In this document: piece by piece, positions 5,357 through 35,915 of the stretch
Layout of the letters: each line of letters starts with the position of its first letter
How positions within the stretch are numbered: the stretch's first letter is position 1
DNA from: a virus
DNA: 35,915 nucleotides
Direction: 5' to 3' (one strand)
Virus record (IMG/VR): IMGVR_UViG_3300046529_000635
Location: 1 to 35,915 of that record
The notes under the pieces: model-generated
Seen by the model: the letters and a program-made list of their open reading frames with translations, nothing else
The model's database searches: none
What the model was told of the DNA's origin: nothing
Translations under genes and position numbers: made by a program

Positions 5357-6799
5357 ATGGCTTTTAAAATCCTGGCGCGGACCCGCGAACAGACTGCAAC
5401 TACTGGAACAGGCGATATAACTGTTTCAGGACTTGTAAGCAGCGATAATGTGGCCTTTTCGGCGGGAATGAGTATTGGCGATACTACGTTTATGTGTGTG
5501 GTGAGTGGGGATGGGGTGGCTTGGGAAGAATTCCTTGGCACCTATTCCGCTATGGATACAATTCAACGAACAACCACTATTATAAACAATTCTGGAACCA
5601 CTGGGCATATTAGTTTGAGTGGAACAAGCCGGGTTTTTGCTATTATTCCAAGTGATTTTGGGGCACTGTTTAATGCTCTTGGGGGTGGGGATATAACCAA
5701 GTTTGTTAGTGGGGATGGAACTTTTAGAACTCCACCTGCATCGATTGGTTGGCATCCTCCGGTGACGGTTACTACAACTGCGGCGCTGCCGGCAAATACC
5801 TATAACAATGGGTCTTCTGGGGTTGGAGCAACTCTTACGGGAAACAGCAACGGAGCATTTCCAACGGTTGATGGGATTGCACCGGTTGTTGGGTATAGGT
5901 ATTTGATTGGGTACGAAGCCGCGCCGGCGAACAATGGTGTGTTTGCGTTGACGCAGCTTGGGGATGGGTCGCACCCGTATATTTTGACCCGGACGAGCGA
6001 TTTTAATAGTGCAGGTAATATAAACCAGGCAGATATTGTTCCGGTTGGTCCGGGTGGGACGGTAAATGGGGATCGAATTTTTGACGTAGTGGCAAGCGCA
6101 AGTCCAATTGTAATGGGAACAACCGGGTTTACGTTTAATTCGGTTGTTGGTCCAGTTATGGTTGGGGATAGTGGTAGCGGGGGAACGAAAGGATTAGTGC
6201 CAGCTCCGGCATCGGGGGATGCGGCGGCGGGAAAAGTTCTTAAGGCTGATGGAACTTGGGCTGTACCGGCTGGGAGTAGCGGGGCTTATGGAACGGCCAC
6301 AACTGTTTCGGCGGCCAATACTAGTGGAACAATTCAAATAACCGGAATTGCCGCGTTTGTTGCGTATAAATTGATTGTGGTAAATTTGCTTCCTGCTACT
6401 GATGGCGCGACGGCGACGCTTCAGTTCGGTATTGGTGGAACTCCAACTTGGGCGACCTCAAACTATGGCTGGAATTGGCACGCCGCCGATACGGTTAGTA
6501 ATAATACTGTTGGAGGTAGCGATAGCGATAGTTCAATTAATTTGTTCCCGAATTCTTTAGGCAATGCGTCGCATGGTGTTTCGGGAGAGTTTTTGATAAG
6601 CTCTGCTGGGGATAATAGTCATTATACAATTATCGGTTCTCATGGTGGCCGGGTTTCGTATGGAGGAACTAGGCACAATTATCATACAAGGGCTGGTGGA
6701 ACCGCAATACTTGGGGGCGCGTTGACCGCGCTTAGGATTGTAACATCAGCCGGCAACTGGGTAAGTGGTAGTATTTCGTTAATTCCAATCACCCTGTAA
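5357..6799 (+). CDS. Tail fibre / tailspike-type protein
   Basis: An ATG preceded by AAGGG starts a 480-residue protein. Residues 1-100 (ARTREQTATTGTGDITVSG, then WEEFLGTYSAMDTIQRTTTI and ISLSGTSRVFAIIPS) match the N-terminal domain seen in many phage tail fibres and tailspikes. Residues about 135-235 (TAALPANTYNNGSSGVGATL... NNGVFALTQLGDGSHPYILTR) match a second recurrent fibre module. The C-terminal about 160 residues form a beta-rich domain with many Gly/Ser that could be the receptor-binding tip. The protein probably recognises the host surface. Assignment of the N-terminal modules is fairly secure; C-terminal specificity is unknown. Confidence 0.8.
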   Translation: MAFKILARTREQTATTGTGDITVSGLVSSDNVAFSAGMSIGDTTFMCVVSGDGVAWEEFLGTYSAMDTIQRTTTIINNSGTTGHISLSGTSRVFAIIPSDFGALFNALGGGDITKFVSGDGTFRTPPASIGWHPPVTVTTTAALPANTYNNGSSGVGATLTGNSNGAFPTVDGIAPVVGYRYLIGYEAAPANNGVFALTQLGDGSHPYILTRTSDFNSAGNINQADIVPVGPGGTVNGDRIFDVVASASPIVMGTTGFTFNSVVGPVMVGDSGSGGTKGLVPAPASGDAAAGKVLKADGTWAVPAGSSGAYGTATTVSAANTSGTIQITGIAAFVAYKLIVVNLLPATDGATATLQFGIGGTPTWATSNYGWNWHAADTVSNNTVGGSDSDSSINLFPNSLGNASHGVSGEFLISSAGDNSHYTIIGSHGGRVSYGGTRHNYHTRAGGTAILGGALTALRIVTSAGNWVSGSISLIPITL

Positions 6800-6812
6800 G
6801 GGAGTTCAGTAG

Positions 6813-7223
6813 ATGGCGAACAAAATCTATCCGAAGTTTAAGAAGGCTAGCATGACCGGGGGAGCGAATACAAATTTGCTTACCGGGAATGTTAAGGCGG
6901 CGCTGGTTAATACGACCAGCTATACTTATAATGATGCCCATGAGTTTTTGTCGGATGTTGCGGGGGCGGCGATCATTGCCTCGACGGGGGCCGCAGGCAG
7001 TAAATCGGTTACGGACTTAGCCGCGTTCTTGTCGGGAACTGTTGTTGCAAGCTCGGTAACTGGCGCGGAGATTGATGCGGTTATTTTGTATATCGATACT
7101 GGGTCGGGAAGTACAAGTCGGCTTGTGGCGTATTATGATACGGGGGTTACGGGACTGCCGGTGACGCCAGCCGGGGCAAGTTATAATGTTATCCCCGATG
7201 CCACTGGATGGTTTGTGGAGTAG
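6813..7223 (+). CDS. Small phage virion-associated protein
   Basis: An ATG lies 8 nt after GGGAG. The 136-residue protein starts MANKIYPKFKKASMTGG and has the pattern LLTGNVKAALVNT..Y.Y...HEFLSDV. This belongs to a widespread family next to tail fibre genes in phages and prophages (about 130-140 aa, beta-rich, Ala/Thr/Val-rich). Full length and co-directional with the fibre gene, it is probably a structural accessory, perhaps a fibre cap or chaperone. The biochemical role of the family is not established as far as I know. Confidence 0.7.
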   Translation: MANKIYPKFKKASMTGGANTNLLTGNVKAALVNTTSYTYNDAHEFLSDVAGAAIIASTGAAGSKSVTDLAAFLSGTVVASSVTGAEIDAVILYIDTGSGSTSRLVAYYDTGVTGLPVTPAGASYNVIPDATGWFVE

Positions 7224-7235
7224 ATTTGTTTCTCT

Positions 7236-7829
7236 ATGGCTTCATTTTTGAAGCAACTGCTGGCGTATATGGATACGCCTTGGAAAGCAATGGCTATATT
7301 TATCTTAGCCATTACTTTTGGTGTTGGTTGGACATTATATGAAAGGCGCGCTGAATTGATCGAGGCGTTTTTGACGCCGAGTGAAATTGAACTTAAGGTT
7401 GCCGATGTTCCGGTAGCGCTTGATAAACTAACCACGGATACTGATGCGGATTTAATTCAAATCTGGGCAGTTGATTTAGGGGAAAATTCACAGCGGTTTA
7501 TTGCTGCGCGTCGGCATGACGGCGAACGGCCAATCATTCCTTCGCCGCGCCGATTGCCTATTATTGTTACCGTTTCGGATGTTCGAACTTTGATAGCAAT
7601 CTTAGAGGGACATCCAATTTGCGTTGATCTGTCGCCGCTTGGATCGCCGCTTGCAAGACGGCTTGCGGAGCGCGGAATGCGCCGTGGTTGTGCAATACCA
7701 ATCCCGCCAACACCGGATAAATTTGTTGGTGTAATTTATCTTGCTTGGAAAAATCCGGTTGACGAAACTAGCGAAAATGTAGCTGTAACCGCCGCTCGTG
7801 AAATTGCTGGTTCGTTGGTTAATAAATAG
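7236..7829 (+). CDS. Membrane-anchored protein of unknown function at the end of the late block
   Basis: The protein has 197 residues. Residues 16-34 (WKAMAIFILAITFGVGWTL) form one transmembrane span near the N-terminus, followed by a short coil and a soluble alpha/beta domain (about 50-195). The soluble part (LIQIWAVDLGENSQRFIAARR ... ICVDLSPLGSPLARRLAERGMRRGCAIPI ... VGVIYLAWKNP) has the general layout of a GAF-like sensor fold. As the last gene before the terminator and next to fibre genes it sits where lysis genes often occur, but no holin, endolysin or spanin motif is visible, so the role is open. Its SD is weak (GGAG 14 nt upstream). Confidence 0.6.
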   Translation: MASFLKQLLAYMDTPWKAMAIFILAITFGVGWTLYERRAELIEAFLTPSEIELKVADVPVALDKLTTDTDADLIQIWAVDLGENSQRFIAARRHDGERPIIPSPRRLPIIVTVSDVRTLIAILEGHPICVDLSPLGSPLARRLAERGMRRGCAIPIPPTPDKFVGVIYLAWKNPVDETSENVAVTAAREIAGSLVNK

Positions 7830-15087: not shown

Positions 15088-15299
15088 GCTAGAGTTTCCT
15101 GCTTTATACGAGCAATTGCTACTTCTCTACGCCATATTTCTGCGGAGCCGCAAATGTCTAAATGGCCGCCGCCAACGAATAGCAATCTTGTTGGACCGTT
15201 GGCTTCTAGTTCAATTATTGCAGCGATGTTGCAAATCTCGATGAATGCTCGATTTCGATCTTCGAGAGTTATTGTTTCTATTTGACCATAGATGCTCAT
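15084..15299 (-). CDS. Small hypothetical protein
   Basis: A 71-residue protein starts at ATG 15299 in an ATGA overlap with the polymerase stop. It contains a likely helix (RNRAFIEICNIAAIIELEANG), a hydrophobic strand (TRLLFVGGGHLDI) and a second helix. It is co-transcribed with the DNA polymerase, so a role in replication is possible. No family is recognised. A longer frame to 15335 has no start signal and overlaps the polymerase. Confidence 0.6.
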   Translation of the reverse strand: MSIYGQIETITLEDRNRAFIEICNIAAIIELEANGPTRLLFVGGGHLDICGSAEIWRREVAIARIKQETLA

Positions 15300-16801
15300 T
15301 GTAGTCTGATCCCATCTAGGCCAGCGGGGTTCCAATCTTCTTTGGTTCCGTCAGCGAGGAGTCGGTATCGATGCGCCCAGTTTTGGCCGCCGACTATTTC
15401 ACCAGGAATTGTCATGGTGCGTCCAGAGCGAGAGTGTTGTGTTACTTGGATATTGTTGAGAGCCTTTTCTAACATGTTAAATTCTTCGCGTTCGGAGCAG
15501 AATGGATATTGAAAATAGATGGCATCGTGGAGTTGACTTAGGATTTGGACTTCTGTTCCTTGGTACTTCCAGAGGCGGTATAGACCAAGATTAACTGCGT
15601 CGGCGGTTGCGGATTGGAACATATAGGCGATGGCGGATTTCCATGTTTCGCGGTCGGTAGGGCGGTCAAAGAAGTCACGCCTGCGGCCATAGCTGTTGGT
15701 TAGGTTTCTTTCGGTTTGAAGAACTGCAATGATATATTGATGCATTTCGCGGATTGGGAATGCGGCGAAGTAACGGTCTTGGAACTCTTGAACAAGATGG
15801 AGTGGAATTCGAGTTTGCCGGGAGATTTCGTTTGGTTCGCCCAGGTAGTTGGTTGCGTGTCCGAGTCGTTTGCTGGCATCGCGATATGTGAAGAAACGGT
15901 AGAAACGCCGCTCGGCAATTGCACGATCCTTTTTAAGATCCCCAGTCCACGCCCATTCGGGATAAAGTAGGCGTGTAACGTAAGTATGGAGATCGCCTGA
16001 CTCGCAGGCGTTGAGATAAGTCCAGTCTCCCAGGACGGTTCCCAGGAACCAACCAACATCGCGGGCTTCTGATTGCGCTTTATCAATACCATAGAGTTTG
16101 TATCCAGGATCGGGGATGAAGACGCGACGGAGAATTTCAGAAATGTTTTGGAAATTGTTTCCGGTTTGTCGCCAAGCTTGATCGGTTTCATTGTAGATCA
16201 TGAAGGGAGATTTGGAACTAGAAAAGCGACCGGTCTTGGTTCCGGCAATGTTGTAGGAACAACGCCAACGCCAATCGGAATCAATTTCGGTTTCGAGAAC
16301 TTGGAGTGATTTGCCTAGGTCGCGGTGGGTTAGAATTCCATTGACTATCGGGGCGGCGAAAGGGTCGGAAAGTTCGAGCTTTTCTAGCGTAGCTCGGTCC
16401 ATTGGAAGTTTGGTTTCGCCCATTGTGGTTTTTTTGATTTGGGGCAACTTCATTATGTCGTAGAATAGATGTTGGAGTTGCTTACCGGAATTGGGAAGCT
16501 TTTCGGTAAAGTTGCAGCCGATGGCGGAGATTATATTGGAAAGATTGGTCCAGGTGTTGGAGCGTTTGTTGCCAAGTTCGATGATAGCCCGCTCGCGTTC
16601 TTCCATATCAACGAGGAAGCCGCGCAAGGTCATTTCCATTGTAACGCCCATTAGGGCGCGCTCGAAGCGGTATATTAAGTCGTCGTTCTGACGTAACTCA
16701 ACGCGGGCGTCGTTGATTTGGTATGTGGCCGCGCAATCAAATCCATTATAAATTGGATCGGTCGCGTCGGCTATTTCTACTTTGTGGCCAGCGATTATCA
16801 T
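15296..16801 (-). CDS. Family A DNA polymerase, polymerase domain with only the last exonuclease motif
   Basis: The 501-residue protein has motif A YGIDKAQSEARDVG (D240), motif B RDASKRLGHATNYLG (R307, K311, Y319) and motif C QLHDAIYF (H425, D426), plus the template-contacting region GTKTGRFSSSKSP. Motif C has Ala where HDE is usual. The N-terminus keeps the exonuclease ExoIII signature Y18-NGF-D22 (compare YxxxD in Klenow), yet ExoI and ExoII are absent from this protein and are found in the gene at 19284-20495. It should therefore pair with that protein for proofreading. ATG 16801 is 1 nt after the previous stop, AGG 11 nt upstream. Confidence 0.9.
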   Translation of the reverse strand: MIIAGHKVEIADATDPIYNGFDCAATYQINDARVELRQNDDLIYRFERALMGVTMEMTLRGFLVDMEERERAIIELGNKRSNTWTNLSNIISAIGCNFTEKLPNSGKQLQHLFYDIMKLPQIKKTTMGETKLPMDRATLEKLELSDPFAAPIVNGILTHRDLGKSLQVLETEIDSDWRWRCSYNIAGTKTGRFSSSKSPFMIYNETDQAWRQTGNNFQNISEILRRVFIPDPGYKLYGIDKAQSEARDVGWFLGTVLGDWTYLNACESGDLHTYVTRLLYPEWAWTGDLKKDRAIAERRFYRFFTYRDASKRLGHATNYLGEPNEISRQTRIPLHLVQEFQDRYFAAFPIREMHQYIIAVLQTERNLTNSYGRRRDFFDRPTDRETWKSAIAYMFQSATADAVNLGLYRLWKYQGTEVQILSQLHDAIYFQYPFCSEREEFNMLEKALNNIQVTQHSRSGRTMTIPGEIVGGQNWAHRYRLLADGTKEDWNPAGLDGIRLQ

Positions 16802-16802
16802 G

Positions 16803-17123
16803 TTATTTTATACCTACAACATAGACCACGACTCCGATGTAACCAGATCGATAGACCGATCCCATTTGTGCGATCTCCCCACCAACAATTGAAATGTTTT
16901 CTTTTTTAGCCGCTTGAGATAACCCAATTGAGAAATCGTCAATCCAAGGCCCCATTGAATGAACGCTTAAATCATCTACCGCAGAAATAGGATTGATACC
17001 TTTAATTCGCATTTTGTAGCAGGCTTTTCGAACTGCTGAAGAACTCATCTTTCGAATTTGTCTACGGTTCAATCGATCAACTCGTTTTCTATGGGACGCG
17101 CCAATGGTGATTTCTATAATCAT
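16803..17123 (-). CDS. PurM-like fragment (AIR synthetase N-domain-like)
   Basis: The 106-residue protein ends in GLSQAAKKENISIVGGEIAQMGSVYRSGYIGVVVYVVG, which matches the part of phosphoribosylformylglycinamidine cyclo-ligase (PurM) with the GGETA(E/Q)M motif. Upstream, RIKGINPISAVDDLSVHSMGPW corresponds to the DLLVxGAxPL-D loop. Only this half-domain is present; a complete PurM has about 340 residues and needs both domains. It starts at ATG 17123, 5 nt after the dCTP deaminase stop. It may be an inactive remnant, or a domesticated ATP-binding or dimerising domain. Weak SD (GAG). Confidence 0.6.
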   Translation of the reverse strand: MIIEITIGASHRKRVDRLNRRQIRKMSSSAVRKACYKMRIKGINPISAVDDLSVHSMGPWIDDFSIGLSQAAKKENISIVGGEIAQMGSVYRSGYIGVVVYVVGIK

Positions 17124-17128
17124 AGCAA

Positions 17129-17773
17129 TTAGCTCGGTTCGTTCCTTGCGGGTTGGGGGCCGGGTTCTTGGTTTTGGTATTTGCCGCGGTATGGAAGATC
17201 GGTTGGTTCGTCGAGCCATTCAAACTTGACTTGACAAACTGGATCGCCGCGTTTGTAATGGATGGTTGTGTTGCCACAGTTTATGAGTTCGACTGTTAGG
17301 AAACCTTCCCAACCGGGGTCTAGGTGGGTGTTGAAAGCGGAAATAAATACGCGGGCGTAGGATGATTTGTCGAGAACGGAACCGCAGATGTTGGCTGGGA
17401 ATGCAAAACGCTCGATAGTAGAGGCGAGTGCTGTATAATTGGTATTTGAAATTCGATCTTTAAATTCGGAATATTCTTCGGCGTGCATAAAATCTTGATG
17501 TGCCATTCGTTGTAGAAATTCAGCAACAATCCAAAATGGCATTGGTTCGAGAATTAATTCTTCTTCGGCAATACGGCAGTCGTAGGTGCAAGAACTGAGG
17601 CCGAATGATTTGCCGTTCTGGGTTCCGCGTTCGACGAATGGAGCAATGAGAGGTTTTTCTAAAGTGTCTATTACATATCTGTTTAAAATTTTATGGTGGT
17701 ATATTGATATGTATTCTCTAACGTAATTTGGAACGCAAAGTCTTCGGATTGATTGGGCTGAGAGGACGGTCAT
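17129..17773 (-). CDS. dcd: dCTP deaminase-like / dUTPase superfamily enzyme
   Basis: The 214-residue protein carries DKSSYARVF (135-143), the LDPGWEGFLTVELIN core (151-165, with E162 in the position of the catalytic Glu of Dcd) and the C-terminal GKYQNQEPGP tail typical of dCTP deaminases. It would make dUTP from dCTP to feed ThyX with dUMP. Residues about 82-125 form an insertion compared with E. coli Dcd. AAGGA lies 10 nt before the ATG. A bifunctional dCTP deaminase/dUTPase is possible, since no separate dUTPase is seen in the window. Confidence 0.88.
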   Translation of the reverse strand: MTVLSAQSIRRLCVPNYVREYISIYHHKILNRYVIDTLEKPLIAPFVERGTQNGKSFGLSSCTYDCRIAEEELILEPMPFWIVAEFLQRMAHQDFMHAEEYSEFKDRISNTNYTALASTIERFAFPANICGSVLDKSSYARVFISAFNTHLDPGWEGFLTVELINCGNTTIHYKRGDPVCQVKFEWLDEPTDLPYRGKYQNQEPGPQPARNEPS

Positions 17774-19283: not shown

Positions 19284-20495
19284 TTATTCGTCTCTCTTTA
19301 GTGAGTCGCGATTTCTCATACGCTTCCAGGCTATGTCCGAGGTAAATAAACTTCCAAGATATCCGAGGCTCTTGGGTTGCTCTGGCATCCAGGAATGGAA
19401 CCAAAGCATTGTGTCGTGGGCGACGTTGCGGGGATGGAGGCCCATACGGATGAAATGGGAACAATCATAGACGCCGTTTTGATAGATTTTTTCTTGTGGG
19501 GTGGCGAGGCCGAATTGAATTAACTTCCAAGCATCGAATTCCAGTTCGGGTGTTGGCCAATAGTTGATGGCGCCGGCGGGAAATCCATTCCAACGGGCAG
19601 CCGGGCCGATGTCGGTTATATATTTTCCAGTCTTATCGGTGGTGAAATCTCGAAGAACTATAATTAGGGCGTCGTGGGGGGATCGGGAAAAGCCGACCAT
19701 TGTTATTTGGTCGCGAAATGTTTCGATGTCGTTGGCATAGGCGGTTGCGGGTTTTTGGAACCAGGCGTAACCTTCAGCAATTCCTTCGGGAGTTGGATTG
19801 ATGACATTGAGCCAGCGCTCGGGGCGACGAACTTCGGGAAATTCGGCTTCCACTCGGGCTTTTTTGTAGTCGGCAATGCAGGTGGGGCGAAAAGCATTGT
19901 TTCGAAGAACATGGGCTGTGTGGTAAGTGGGAAGAACTTTGACGGATAGTTTGGTGCTCCAATCAATATAGCCTCGCATGTCGGAGATTTTTGGGGATTG
20001 GTTCAGTAGTGCCCAACAGGCCGCGTTGCCCATTGCGATTACTAAGTTTGGTTTGTATGCGGAAATTTCTTCATAGAGGCGGAGGATATGGTAGTAATGT
20101 TCGCCCTTAAGGTGGGTTCCGGGAGATTTCTTACTTGCTTTCCAAGGTGGCATCGGGGTTTCGCGTTCGGAACCAAAGAAGAAGCCCAGGTCGTTGGATG
20201 GGGGTTGTTCATTAAAGACGTTTGTGATAGCTATGTAATTGGCGGCTTTTAGTTCTTTCCAATGGTGCATTAGATTGAATTCGTTGGGGGCGAGGTATTC
20301 GTTGCAAGTTGGGCAGTGGAAGTTGCCGGTGAAGGGGGTTATTTCTTTACATTTGCGACAGCGGATCTTCATGAATGGGGCGAGGCCGGCGCGGCCCATT
20401 TCGAGAGTAAGTTCTCTACCGGATGGACCGACAAGAGCGTGTCGCATGTTTGCTTCTCTTGTTCCCCAGGCTTCGCCGCAGAGAACGATCTTCAT
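19284..20495 (-). CDS. Uracil-DNA glycosylase-like domain fused to the ExoI/ExoII half of a polymerase proofreading exonuclease
   Basis: This 403-residue protein has two parts. Residues 1-225 are UDG-like (family 4/5 style): LCGEAWGTREANMRH at the start, GPSGRELTLEMGRAGL, NVFNEQPPSND, NLVIAMGNAACWALL and LPTYHTAHVLRN. A zinc ribbon (C46, C49, C61, C64) is inserted. Residues 250-403 are a DnaQ-like 3'-5' exonuclease: ExoI D256-I-E258 and ExoII NGVYD (N340, D344), followed by HDTMLWFHSWMPEQPKSLGYLGSLFT, typical of polA-linked exonucleases. ExoIII is missing here and occurs at the start of the polymerase (15296-16801). ATG overlaps the previous TGA. It should complete the polymerase in trans. 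Confidence 0.85.
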   Translation of the reverse strand: MKIVLCGEAWGTREANMRHALVGPSGRELTLEMGRAGLAPFMKIRCRKCKEITPFTGNFHCPTCNEYLAPNEFNLMHHWKELKAANYIAITNVFNEQPPSNDLGFFFGSERETPMPPWKASKKSPGTHLKGEHYYHILRLYEEISAYKPNLVIAMGNAACWALLNQSPKISDMRGYIDWSTKLSVKVLPTYHTAHVLRNNAFRPTCIADYKKARVEAEFPEVRRPERWLNVINPTPEGIAEGYAWFQKPATAYANDIETFRDQITMVGFSRSPHDALIIVLRDFTTDKTGKYITDIGPAARWNGFPAGAINYWPTPELEFDAWKLIQFGLATPQEKIYQNGVYDCSHFIRMGLHPRNVAHDTMLWFHSWMPEQPKSLGYLGSLFTSDIAWKRMRNRDSLKRDE

Positions 20496-28248: not shown

Positions 28249-28635
28249 CTAGCATGGTGAGGGTGGCGGCGCAAGCGCGGTTTCGGTGGCAGGTGCCATA
28301 CCCAAGAACTTGGACCTAGCTTTGTTTATCTCAGAAATGAGATTGGAATTTTTGAATTTGTTTTGCATATTTTGAATGTGGCGTTCGACTTCGGGGTGGG
28401 ATGTTGGATAGTGGTGGCGGGAACTATTGCATTTTGCGTGGGCGGCTTTCGCGGGACGAGCGGTGTTCTTTAATCCGTCAGCATGTTTGGGAACTAGGTG
28501 ATCTAGTGTTGCTTCGAATGGGTGTGTATTTCTTGTTTTAGGGTTTTTACGGGGTGGAAACATGGGAAGGCTGCATATCCAACAGATACCTTGTTGTTCT
28601 TTGTAGAGACGAATGGTGCGGTTTTTACGGGGCAT
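28249..28635 (-). CDS. HNH endonuclease
   Basis: The 128-residue protein has a zinc pair GICWICSLP (C18, C21), then LDHLVPKHADG (D45, H46) and AHAKCNSSR (H66, C69, N70), an HNH-type beta-beta-alpha metal motif. It is free-standing, not beside a terminase, so it might be a mobile endonuclease or a host-DNA-cutting nuclease. The start is in a TAATG overlap with the coiled-coil gene. C-terminus is Pro/Ala-rich. Confidence 0.78.
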   Translation of the reverse strand: MPRKNRTIRLYKEQQGICWICSLPMFPPRKNPKTRNTHPFEATLDHLVPKHADGLKNTARPAKAAHAKCNSSRHHYPTSHPEVERHIQNMQNKFKNSNLISEINKARSKFLGMAPATETALAPPPSPC

Positions 28636-29629: not shown

Positions 29630-29989
29630 CTATAGGTCGAGATCGAGGTCTAGGTCGAGAGCTTCTTTGCTTGGTTTGGGTTTGGGTGGATTCATTGTTC
29701 TGACGGGGGGCTTTGGTTGGGGCTTTGCGCCGGGCTTTGCGCCCGTTGTTCTGACGGGGGTAGTTGGTTTTGGGCTTGGATTGGGGCTTGGGCTGGGGCT
29801 TTTGATTGGAAGGCCAGTTTTTGGTTCGGTGATGTTGGCGAAGGAGGTTGCTAGGCGGTGGATTGTATGCTTGTGAGCGTCGTTTTCAGCGCGGACTCGG
29901 GCGCGGTCTTCCATTAGGATTTCTATTTGGTATAGAATTCCGTCTAGATCGCCAGCGACGAATAGAGCACGGATAGTGTCGGAGATCAT
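29630..29989 (-). CDS. Proline-rich protein with DLDLDLDL tail
   Basis: A 119-residue protein with a helical N-terminus (TIRALFVAGDLDGILYQIEILMEDRARVRAENDAHKHTI, about 5-45), a long Pro/Ser/Lys linker (SPSPSPNPSPKP, GAKPGAKPQPKPP) and a C-terminal LDLDLDLDL, the longest DL tail in the window. The architecture, folded head, flexible linker, acidic tail, is like an SSB-style docking protein. ATGA overlap with the preceding gene. Confidence 0.68.
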   Translation of the reverse strand: MISDTIRALFVAGDLDGILYQIEILMEDRARVRAENDAHKHTIHRLATSFANITEPKTGLPIKSPSPSPNPSPKPTTPVRTTGAKPGAKPQPKPPVRTMNPPKPKPSKEALDLDLDLDL

Positions 29990-31310: not shown

Positions 31311-31637
31311 TTATCCTATTTCTAGCATTGCATTGACCAACGATAAGACTTCGGGGGCGAATTTTGTTTTTCCGTCTTGGGATATGAGCCATGAAATGTA
31401 GGATGGGTCGATTTTGCAGATTGTTTCGACCTTTTCGCCGACATATTTGCCGAATGGAAGATCGTCGTCGAGTTTTAGGATTAGCTTCGCCCGGATTATT
31501 GATCGGAGGAAGACGGAAATGTAGTCTTCAATGCTTATATCTCGTTCTTCGGAGAGCTTGGCGCTTGCTTTTTCTACTAAGGTTGCGGGGAGGTAGATTG
31601 CTTTTACGATGCCTTCGGGTATTTTTCGTTTTGACAT
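31311..31637 (-). CDS. Ribbon-helix-helix-like domain fused to a QSregVF-type domain
   Basis: The 108-residue protein has an N-terminal VKAIYLPATLVEKASAKLSEERDISIEDYISVFLRSI (11-47), compatible with ribbon-helix-helix, and a C-terminal LPFGKYVGEKVETICKIDPSYISWLIS (60-86) matching the small domain (DUF3820/QSregVF_b) also found at the end of exonuclease X-type proteins. This pairing suggests a DNA-associated regulator. GGAG is 10 nt before the ATG. Confidence 0.68.
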   Translation of the reverse strand: MSKRKIPEGIVKAIYLPATLVEKASAKLSEERDISIEDYISVFLRSIIRAKLILKLDDDLPFGKYVGEKVETICKIDPSYISWLISQDGKTKFAPEVLSLVNAMLEIG

Positions 31638-31703
31638 TGGGATGGGACTCCGGGATCGGGGTCGGGATCGGTTGTGGTGGTCGCTGTCGCGATGGGGGAT
31701 TAT

Positions 31704-32917: not shown

Positions 32918-33094
32918 TTAGCGGTGGCGGCGAGGATGCCAATCGTATAGAGTTGGGATTTCTTTTGTAACAAAATAGACTGCAATTTCTTCAACCGCGC
33001 AATCGGGTATATCGATGGCATGTTTGCGCACAATGTCATAGAGTTCTTTTTGAACAGCATCTAGGGCGCGGGTCATTTCGTCGCGGGTTGCCAT
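32918..33094 (-). CDS. 58-residue hypothetical protein
   Basis: This frame overlaps the YkgJ-type gene's stop by TAATG and covers an otherwise unannotated 177 nt. It is helical at the start (TRDEMTRALDAVQKELYDIVRKHA) and ends with a basic HPRRHR. No family is recognised; the perfect start context supports expression. Confidence 0.63.
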   Translation of the reverse strand: MATRDEMTRALDAVQKELYDIVRKHAIDIPDCAVEEIAVYFVTKEIPTLYDWHPRRHR

Positions 33095-33642
33095 TATTTT
33101 TGTTCCATAGAGAGAACCATATATGAACCGAATGGTTCATTTTCTGCAACGAACTTGAGACCTTCGTATTCGGGAGTTTTTATCAAGCGGCCAAGGTAGA
33201 TTTTACCGTCTCTGAAATGGTTTACTTCGAGGGTAGAGTAATTTACCACATTTAGCGCCGTGCAAAGTTCGGTTTCAAGGATTAATTTTATGATTTGGCT
33301 AAGTTTGCCATCGTTGATTGTTCCGGCCTTTTTAGCGTCACAGATAACTATGGTTGTGTGGAATAGTGGAAATGGTTTATCTGGATCGGGGTATGGGGTT
33401 ATTAGGACACCCGAGTTGTCGGGGCGGAAAGATTCGTCGGAACCAATGCCGTCAATATAACCGCAACGGTATCGTGAGCAGGGTTCGGGACGGGAAGAAT
33501 AGATGCTGCATCGGGTATTGGGTCCAAGAGAACCGTCTAGGTGTTTGCAGTTTTGGGTTGGATACTTTTTTAATTCGGCTATGCCTAAGAATATGCAACA
33601 TGCAAAACATGAGCCGCAGGAACGGGATTTTGGTTCATTCAT
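33094..33642 (-). CDS. YkgJ-family cysteine-cluster protein
   Basis: The 182-residue protein has the CxxCxxCC cluster (C9, C12, C15, C16), then NCKHL (C32), TRCSIY (C45) and RPEPCSRYRC (C55, C60), the pattern of the YkgJ/PF03692 metal-binding family, which binds Zn or Fe and is found in bacteria and phages. The C-terminal half has ELCTALNVVNY and looks like a separate domain. AGGGA lies 10 nt upstream and the ATG is preceded by TCAGAACA. Function unknown. Confidence 0.8.
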   Translation of the reverse strand: MNEPKSRSCGSCFACCIFLGIAELKKYPTQNCKHLDGSLGPNTRCSIYSSRPEPCSRYRCGYIDGIGSDESFRPDNSGVLITPYPDPDKPFPLFHTTIVICDAKKAGTINDGKLSQIIKLILETELCTALNVVNYSTLEVNHFRDGKIYLGRLIKTPEYEGLKFVAENEPFGSYMVLSMEQK

Positions 33643-34062: not shown

Positions 34063-34121
34063 GATTAGTTCCTTTCAGTCCAAGCGAGGAGCCTTTTTGC
34101 TACATGCTCAGGTAGCCGATT

Positions 34122-34685
34122 TTATTCTCCGCCGTATGCGGCTTTTAGTTGATCTTCAGACAAAACTTCGCGTACTTTCTTATCGGCTGGAACCATTGGA
34201 ATAATGGTTATTAGCCAATTGCTCATTGTTGGGGCGATTTCGCGTAGCTCTTGTCCGGTTGTGTCGCCCACAGTTTTGCCGTTTGGTAGAACCATTTCGA
34301 GTAGAAGAATTTGAGCCTTCTTGTGAATGGCCTTTTTGAGCATCTCCTCTGTTCGAATGTTTAGCTCTTGTGTAATTTCCTCCTGTTTCTTAATTTCTTC
34401 TTCAGAAGGCAATGGTTTTGTTTCTTTTCTTTCTTCTGTAGATGATAGATCAATGTCGAGCGGCACTTCAGGTTGAATACTGCGCAAATTGTTAGCGAAC
34501 CAGTATTCGAAGATGGCTCGCATGACAGTCGGCTTTTCGCGAACTTCGTGCCACATTGTTTCTTCAAGATCGCCTTCGGACATTGAAGGGTTATGTTCGA
34601 TAAGTTTTAGCAAAATTCCACGCGGACTGTCCCGATGATAGGATTGCCGCTTGGCGCCTTGCTTTCCGGTGTGAGTAGTGGACAT
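34122..34685 (-). CDS. Hypothetical protein of a family shared with alphaproteobacterial genomes
   Basis: The 187-residue protein has an N-terminal helical part, a coiled-coil linker (EEIKKQEEITQELNIRTEEM) and a C-terminal domain with LLEMVLPNGKTVGDTTGQELREIAP...VREVLSEDQLKAAYG. I recall LxMxLPNGK-xGDxTG-xEL proteins from Rhizobiales genomes and phages, suggesting host contact, but no function. CAGGAG lies 7 nt before the ATG. Confidence 0.63.
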   Translation of the reverse strand: MSTTHTGKQGAKRQSYHRDSPRGILLKLIEHNPSMSEGDLEETMWHEVREKPTVMRAIFEYWFANNLRSIQPEVPLDIDLSSTEERKETKPLPSEEEIKKQEEITQELNIRTEEMLKKAIHKKAQILLLEMVLPNGKTVGDTTGQELREIAPTMSNWLITIIPMVPADKKVREVLSEDQLKAAYGGE

Positions 34686-34706
34686 GGTTTAACTCCTGTT
34701 GAATTG

Positions 34707-35666
34707 TTAGAGGTCAAGGTCCAGGATAGTTTTTTTAAAGTTTCTTATTAGAGATAATCTAACTTTTGAAAGATTCAAAAGATGATCTCTATTTTTTAAT
34801 CTTTGATTTTTTTCTCTTTCTTTATGTAAAGATAGATTGTTATCTCGATTATATTTGGTTCTACATTTTGGAGAACAAAAACGAGTACCTCTATATGCAT
34901 GAATACTTCCTAAATGTAATTCAAAAACCAAACCACATAGTTTGCATTGACCAAAGTATCCGATTAGTGGTGATGTATGTCTATATTTAGAGGTTTCTTT
35001 TTTATTATTAGAGATAATAATACTTGGTGATATCTCCAATTCATTTTTTATAAGCTGTATTATTGCTGTTCCGTGTTTATTTCTACAGGAATGTGAACAA
35101 TATTTGTGCCCTAAAATACTATTACTTAATAGTAAAAATGATTTTCCACATATAATACATTGACCGTAATATCCGATATAGAGTATTGGCCGACTACATT
35201 TTGTAGAGCAAAATCGTTTAGCTGCATCTCTGCCATGACCTAGTGGAAAATACGTTCCGCAAGTTATACATTGTCCGCTATGACCAGCGTATTCTGAAGA
35301 TTCAAGATGGATTATTTTTGCAGTACATTCGTATGAGCAAAAGAATCGCTTATTGGCGCCTTTTGTTCCATTAGACGTTAAGAGAAAAGTTTTTCCACAT
35401 GTTTTACATTGGCCACTAAATCCAGTAATAGAAAATCCATGATGAGCCCAACGACATTTTACGGAACAATATCTTGGTTTATCTAAACTTCTTTTATCTA
35501 GTAAAAAAGCTGATCCACATTCTATACACTGACCGCTATGACCATAAATTCCTTTTGTACTGTAACTTCCAAGTGGGCGACCGCGCTGATTAGATTTAGG
35601 TTTATATGAGACTATTGATTGTGCAATAGCTTCAAATAAATTATCTTCTTCTTCTTCATAAATCAT
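34707..35666 (-). CDS. Five-zinc-ribbon protein with DLDL tail
   Basis: A 319-residue protein with five tandem CxxC...CxxxC units: C47/50/67/71, C87/90/110/114, C133/136/153/157, C170/173/190/194 and C241/244/264/268. Each repeats the pattern GQCxxCGxxFxL...(R/K)(F/Y)CSxxC. The linker (about 196-230) and the C-terminal basic helix (about 272-314, HKEREKNQRLKNRD) are Lys/Arg-rich. The end is ILDLDL. The gene is visibly AT-richer than its surroundings, suggesting separate acquisition. It probably binds nucleic acid; a homing-endonuclease-associated zinc module is an alternative. No catalytic motif is seen. Confidence 0.78.
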   Translation of the reverse strand: MIYEEEEDNLFEAIAQSIVSYKPKSNQRGRPLGSYSTKGIYGHSGQCIECGSAFLLDKRSLDKPRYCSVKCRWAHHGFSITGFSGQCKTCGKTFLLTSNGTKGANKRFFCSYECTAKIIHLESSEYAGHSGQCITCGTYFPLGHGRDAAKRFCSTKCSRPILYIGYYGQCIICGKSFLLLSNSILGHKYCSHSCRNKHGTAIIQLIKNELEISPSIIISNNKKETSKYRHTSPLIGYFGQCKLCGLVFELHLGSIHAYRGTRFCSPKCRTKYNRDNNLSLHKEREKNQRLKNRDHLLNLSKVRLSLIRNFKKTILDLDL

Positions 35667-35683
35667 TATTAGTATTCCTTTAG

Positions 35684-35914
35684 TCAGTCGGCCTCGGCGG
35701 TTGCGAGAGCGGAGGTTGTTGCTTCGGCGGCGGCCATTACGACGGTTCGGGACTTGGCTTCGGTTTCTTTGCCAAGGCTGCCGGGGACGAAGATTGTTCC
35801 AAAAGAACCGGAGTCGGGGTCATTTGAGGAATGGAGTGGAGAGCCATAACTGTCTTTAAAACCAGCTTCAAGTTCGGCGTGTTGTTCTAGAAGCGCAAAG
35901 CCAAGTCTGCGCAT
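35684..35914 (-). CDS. Hypothetical protein, possibly cut by the window edge
   Basis: The frame runs to the right edge, with an ATG at 35912-35914 that may be the start or internal. The 76 residues contain GFKDSYGSPLHSSNDPDSGSFGTIFVPGSL and a long Ala/Thr/Glu tail (MAAAEATTSALATAEAD). No family is recognised. Since the SD would lie outside the window, the start cannot be decided. Confidence 0.5.
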   Translation of the reverse strand: MRRLGFALLEQHAELEAGFKDSYGSPLHSSNDPDSGSFGTIFVPGSLGKETEAKSRTVVMAAAEATTSALATAEAD

Positions 35915-35915
35915 A

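Follow-up and report, generated by a model that had tools for sequence, protein, structure and literature searches.

Gene content and base composition of the locus

We analyzed a 35,915-nt stretch of viral DNA (the window), positions 1 to 35,915 of IMG/VR record IMGVR_UViG_3300046529_000635. The following features lie at the locus, in part defined by comparison with a sister genome, G002:

34116–35687, unstranded: exchanged segment, unrelated to G002; homology ends at about 34115 and resumes at 35688
34122–34685, minus strand: gene for a 187-residue protein, function unassigned, GC 0.445; second gene in the exchanged segment
34707–35666, minus strand: zinc-finger array gene, from the ORF call, cysteine positions, GC and a profile search with shuffles
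35667–35683, minus strand: 17-nt intergenic stretch with an RBS-like AAAGGAA ahead of the array gene's ATG
35684–35915, minus strand: 3' end of the upstream gene (503 residues; DUF7192 in G002), conserved, at the segment border

The array ORF is intact from ATG to TAA and encodes a protein of 319 residues with a pI of 9.5. Its GC content (0.322; GC3 0.163) is the lowest among the 36 ORFs of the window, which has an overall GC of 0.467, and a steep drop in GC falls at the borders of the gene. Base composition measured along the window thus bears out the preliminary description, in which the gene was said to be richer in AT than both of its neighbors (0.445 and 0.554). Neither a group I intron nor any other RNA element turned up near the array gene, and a search for relatives of the 187-residue neighbor found none.

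Five FCS-type treble-clef fingers

All 20 cysteines of the array protein fall within five CxxC...CSxxC units, whose CxxC motifs start at residues 47, 87, 133, 170 and 241 and whose CSxxC motifs start at residues 67, 110, 153, 190 and 264. From the N to the C terminus, the protein is divided as follows:

35550–35666, minus strand: N-terminal leader, acidic and helical, residues 1–39 (MIYEEEEDNLFEAI...)
35454–35528, minus strand: finger 1, Cys 47/50/67/71; profile domain 1 (envelope 45–77)
35325–35408, minus strand: finger 2, Cys 87/90/110/114; profile domain 2
35196–35270, minus strand: finger 3, Cys 133/136/153/157; profile domain 3
35085–35159, minus strand: finger 4, Cys 170/173/190/194; profile domain 4
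34863–34946, minus strand: finger 5, Cys 241/244/264/268; profile domain 5
34728–34862, minus strand: C-terminal basic helix, part of model helix 266–316; no nuclease domain found
34707–34727, minus strand: codons for ILDLDL and the stop, high in GC and different from the gene body; may mark an insertion junction, from codon counts

Alignment of the five units gives eleven invariant positions, G-x2-GQC-x2-CG-x2-F-x-L...CS-x2-C, and units 2–5 are 38–46% identical to unit 1. Codons at these invariant positions differ between units by synonymous changes (Gly GGT/GGC/GGA, Gln CAA/CAG, Cys TGT/TGC); pN/pS between units is 0.45/0.64, which is near saturation and so weakly informative. With four cysteines apiece, each unit is predicted to bind zinc.

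An HMM trained on 136 fingers taken from other phage contigs recognizes five domains in the protein (total E 4.6e-32, 95.7 bits; the top score among 500 shuffles is 9.4 bits), in agreement with the five CxxC...CxxxC units counted in the preliminary description. Scores of this kind can be raised by convergent cysteine spacing. The Pfam match to zf-FCS_1 (PF21319) is weak, at 17.2 bits, below the cut-off of 26.6, and all five units follow the FCS-type pattern of a CxxC knuckle, a spacer with a conserved Phe and an [FY]CSxxC that starts a helix. A structure model of modest confidence from a 20-sequence alignment (pLDDT 67, pTM 0.32) has hairpins at the CxxC motifs and helices beginning at the CSxxC motifs, that is, a treble-clef topology, with unit 5 the least confident; in the leader it has a helix at residues 5–19, and residues 22–40 are of low confidence. 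The units had been described as zinc ribbons, but the model shows a knuckle or hairpin followed by a helix, not the two knuckles of a zinc ribbon. Because of this topology and the FCS-type matches, FCS-type treble-clef finger is the better term.

Among solved structures, profile matches to the full unit were obtained for eL24 (E 0.012) and for the FCS fingers of polyhomeotic and L3MBTL2 (0.36–0.39). FCS and TRASH-type treble clefs include binders of RNA or protein, a point that weighs against a DNA-binding reading. In a published classification (PMC4999995), the eL24 and FCS-type fingers stand with or close to treble clefs of the TRASH type. Two further sets of PDB matches were rejected: those to C2H2/CTCF proteins cover the CxxCGxxF knuckle only, and those to serine hydroxymethyltransferase sequences (E 0.7) are attributed to chance. 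The zf-FCS_1 and zf-FCS fingers have the same cysteine pattern and the same topology of knuckle and helix, but usually occur as one or a few copies in other proteins, whereas the array has five. Polydactyl C2H2 arrays (CTCF, ZFP568) are analogous in the idea of tandem modules and differ from the array in ligands and fold.

Membership in a class of phage finger proteins

The PHROG_1271 profile ('HNH endonuclease') matches the array protein at 9.6e-23 in four stretches, the best of which spans profile positions 173–276 of 361. Since the HNH gene of the window at 28249–28635 matches the same profile at positions 258–331, the part of PHROG_1271 that is missing from the array protein is the HNH domain. 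Scans with PHROG, Pfam and NCBIfam detected no HNH catalytic domain in the array protein, and scans with Pfam and PHROG no Vsr-like PD-(D/E)XK domain. The protein, for which no known family had at first been recognized, therefore belongs among the tandem FCS-finger proteins of phages (PHROG_1271), with the catalytic half absent; no catalytic family matches over its whole length, PHROG_1271 aligning through the finger array alone.

Because tblastn with the whole protein gave no relative in phages at E≤0.01, its homology rests on finger profiles. The weak tblastn neighbors above that limit, from phages and plasmids, include other multi-finger proteins: an HNH protein of HRTV-28, two plasmid-encoded Streptomyces proteins that join about seven fingers to a Vsr/MTES_1575-like nuclease, and the nuclease-less arrays of ChaoS9 and Natrinema. 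Over the whole length, the array protein is 20–29% identical to relatives, less than its own units 2–5 are to unit 1. The top matches in a viral structure library were HNH proteins and phage multi-finger proteins.

A pattern scan of viral contigs for a single QC-type finger matched at least 120 stretches at at least 80 loci. Among the matches listed, 72 proteins were readable and 26 of these have three or more fingers, three being cut by a contig edge and 23 complete. By manual reading, about 21 of the 23 complete multi-finger proteins listed have a nuclease domain of the HNH, endonuclease VII or Vsr-like type, and two multi-finger proteins, L115 and L066, are without a nuclease; examples of the former are L044, with six fingers and HNH, and L114 and L116, with four fingers and Vsr. 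When 20 class members were scanned, 19 matched PHROG_1271, and their Pfam matches include HNH, DUF559, MTES_1575 and Vsr, in keeping with a class associated with nucleases. The preliminary description had also singled out the signature GQC-CG-F-CS-C as a means of finding further multi-finger proteins, but in viral contigs the tandem GQC pattern found no close relative and recovered only the window itself; matches in bacterial genomes (L037:2151–2546 and L038:4153–7191) were discarded as unrelated, one being a low-complexity repeat and the other a protein of Cys-rich repeats.

Low GC is common in these genes. Among the matches listed, the finger gene has a lower GC than its flanks at 39 of 45 loci (median difference −5 points, p 5e-7), in 25 of 26 cases when three or more fingers are present, and it is the lowest-GC ORF at 24 of 41 loci. 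AT-richness is thus a trait of the finger-gene class, consistent with mobile genes.

Three groups of finger-array proteins are among the closest in kind. The PHROG_1271-type phage HNH endonucleases (HRTV-28 gp29, L006; the six-finger L044) have tandem CxxC...CSxxC fingers that resemble those of the array protein in length and motif, and their genes are likewise phage-borne and usually AT-rich relative to their neighbors, but they end in HNH, whereas the array protein ends in a basic helix and ILDLDL. In the Vsr/DUF559/MTES_1575-type fusions (Streptomyces L004 and L007; L114 and L116), four to seven fingers form a presumed targeting module; these have a C-terminal nuclease and lack the GQC signature, the reverse of the array protein. 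Finally, the ChaoS9 zinc-finger protein (L012) and a Natrinema plasmid protein (L005), both from haloarchaeal elements, and a protein of phage contig L115 also have several fingers, no recognizable nuclease and a place on mobile elements, but they have three to four fingers, other flanking segments and no clear similarity to the array outside the fingers. Judged by sequence, the array protein belongs, with its five fingers, to a common phage class but has no recognizable form of the nuclease usual there. A literature search returned no characterization of this class, which is known from databases.

Exchange of the array gene at a phage locus

Three IMG/VR relatives were found by means of the phage's DNA polymerase. 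One, G001, is 99.99% identical to the window phage but ends short of the array region, and the comparison of the locus was therefore made with one sister genome, G002, which is 94.5–98% identical to the window over most of 5409–35915. At the site of the exchanged segment, G002 has a gene for a 133-residue protein with a single CGNR-type finger (PF11706, E 3.5e-5, 23.9 bits against a cut-off of 24) and an 89-residue gene. A search of G002 with the array protein gave no match. The CGNR gene has a GC content of 34%, the lowest of the 24 ORFs in its 20-kb piece. Because G002 thus holds a different AT-rich zinc-finger gene at this position, we regard the array gene as an accessory gene at a swap locus, and its presence and absence in otherwise near-identical genomes is a trait of homing genes.

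The last residues of the upstream gene (AEAD) are the same in G002, with synonymous differences right at the junction. The array gene lies 249 nt from the end of the contig, and a chimera at the contig end was considered and rejected: the 228 nt beyond the gene align to G002 with 96% identity and follow the order expected, so that both sides of the array gene are phage DNA. At the other edge, a block at 34089–34112 (GAGCCTTTTTGCTACATGCTCAGG) is common to G002 (96% over 27 nt); it lies between diverged stretches and occurs once in the window.

The transfer proposed in the preliminary description is supported by the foreign composition of the gene and by the unrelated genes at this site in near-identical G002, and the array gene was probably acquired from elsewhere. 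It may have arrived separately from the gene for the 187-residue protein, since that gene, though inside the exchanged segment, is not AT-rich. What is unusual here is the combination of five similar GQC fingers and no nuclease at a locus with different zinc-finger genes in near-identical phages.

Several other differences and neighbors were noted. The window alone has stretches at 16811–17138 and 31363–31658, with small ORFs, and G002 alone has a 1.3-kb insert (L026:14600–15876). Downstream of the array, a Cys-rich protein that starts with CGSCFACC (33094–33642; PHROG_9155) is kept in G002. Upstream of the locus, G002 encodes an AAA+ ATPase with a match to PHROG_249 ('porphyrin biosynthesis', CobS-like) and, close to it, an acidic protein assigned to DUF7192/PHROG_1909 (L026:3725–5512 and 6203–7711); the two may form a CobS/CobT-like pair immediately ahead of the swap locus.

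The C-terminal helix and the ILDLDL tail

The C-terminal helix occupies the place taken by HNH or Vsr in many relatives, and residues 266–319 contain 15 Lys/Arg and six Asp/Glu. By-eye likeness of residues 290–314 to the basic linker that precedes HNH in L059 and relatives raised the idea of an HNH-linker remnant, which was rejected: with a profile of 11 linkers, 616 of 1,000 shuffles scored as well as the array C terminus.

The last six sense codons are ATC CTG GAC CTT GAC CTC; in the gene body, GAC is used for none of six Asp residues (all GAT) and CTG for none of 29 Leu residues. Because of this mismatch the tail may represent resident phage sequence that lies beyond the point of an insertion, a post hoc suggestion drawn from few codons. 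The preliminary description had taken the DLDL ending to tie the protein to the rest of the phage. The tail is real, its codons differ from those of the body, and one other listed gene, at 29630–29989, ends in the same way (...LDLDLDLDL); the tie is qualified by the small number of codons and its post hoc nature. The product of that gene is a 119-residue protein rich in proline and lysine, whose ALDLDLDLDL end resembles the tail of the array.

A proposed DNA-binding function

Based on these observations, we propose, with a probability of roughly 55%, that the gene was acquired and encodes a finger array like those of homing endonucleases but with no nuclease, which acts as a modular DNA-binding protein. 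We infer modular recognition because arrays of the same kind sit on homing-type nucleases in many phages, and to this extent the corresponding suggestion in the preliminary description holds, binding itself being presumed by analogy. Each treble-clef finger would contact a few bases, and the five fingers together with the basic C-terminal helix would bind one extended DNA site; the basic charge (pI and C-terminal region) fits DNA binding. The protein would act by occupancy and not by cutting, (i) repressing or marking its site or (ii) shielding it from a rival homing enzyme. Its ancestor was probably a homing endonuclease gene from which the nuclease part disappeared, or else an array that spread without one, and the five GQC fingers would have arisen by internal duplication. 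A precedent that has been studied is I-TevI, a phage homing enzyme with a zinc finger; this enzyme also binds an operator site (PMC2988022).

Alternatively, the gene could be a homing endonuclease gene in decay, its nuclease deleted and the leftover array expressed without a function of its own. Most relatives among the matches listed retain the nuclease that is missing here, and the change of codon usage over the last ~20 nt points to a C-terminal junction. Free-standing phage homing genes turn over. Examples from T4 have been reviewed (PMC2988022). Decay is nevertheless unlikely: the ORF is intact with all 20 cysteines kept and an RBS-like sequence in place, invariant residues differ between units synonymously only, and no HNH remnant is found in the C terminus or as an adjoining ORF.

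About as unlikely is that the array serves in host takeover as a hub that binds proteins or RNA, such as a fivefold YacG-like gyrase binder or an RNA-binding FCS array. Pointing this way are YacG in its gyrase complex (probability 0.80–0.84, E 0.55) and the L3MBTL2 FCS finger (probability 0.54) among the structural matches, the profile matches to the rRNA-binding treble clef eL24 and to polyhomeotic FCS (0.36), and the acidic N terminus; all of these matches are weak, however (Foldseek E 0.55–1.6), and the family context is one of nucleases and not of gyrase or ribosome proteins. Very improbable is a split nuclease in which the array is the targeting subunit and works in trans with the stand-alone HNH protein of 28249–28635, as that HNH gene, although of the same broad family, on the same strand and 6 kb away, is retained by G002 (in a block 98% identical) without the array, so that the two are not inherited together.

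If the modular DNA-binding protein that we favor binds one long site, it would provide a compact, naturally occurring set of modular fingers for DNA recognition and would show a route from homing nuclease to binding protein. Our literature search found no recognition code described for the finger arrays on phage HNH and Vsr nucleases, and a nuclease-free five-finger array would be a convenient version for testing recognition. More tentatively, and as a reading that we consider rather unlikely, phages and archaeal mobile elements could harbor a class of free-standing, nuclease-free treble-clef arrays that are modular, sequence-specific DNA binders, the prokaryotic equivalent of polydactyl zinc-finger proteins. 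Internal duplication would alter the number of fingers and their specificity, and in this phage such genes would alternate at one exchange locus.

An apparently split DNA polymerase

Elsewhere in the window, DNA polymerase A is apparently split between genes at 15296–16801 and 19284–20495, 2.5 kb apart. One gene has the polymerase part, matching PHROG_17 at positions 809–1210, and the other combines a uracil-DNA-glycosylase-like domain with a match to PHROG_17 positions 556–786.
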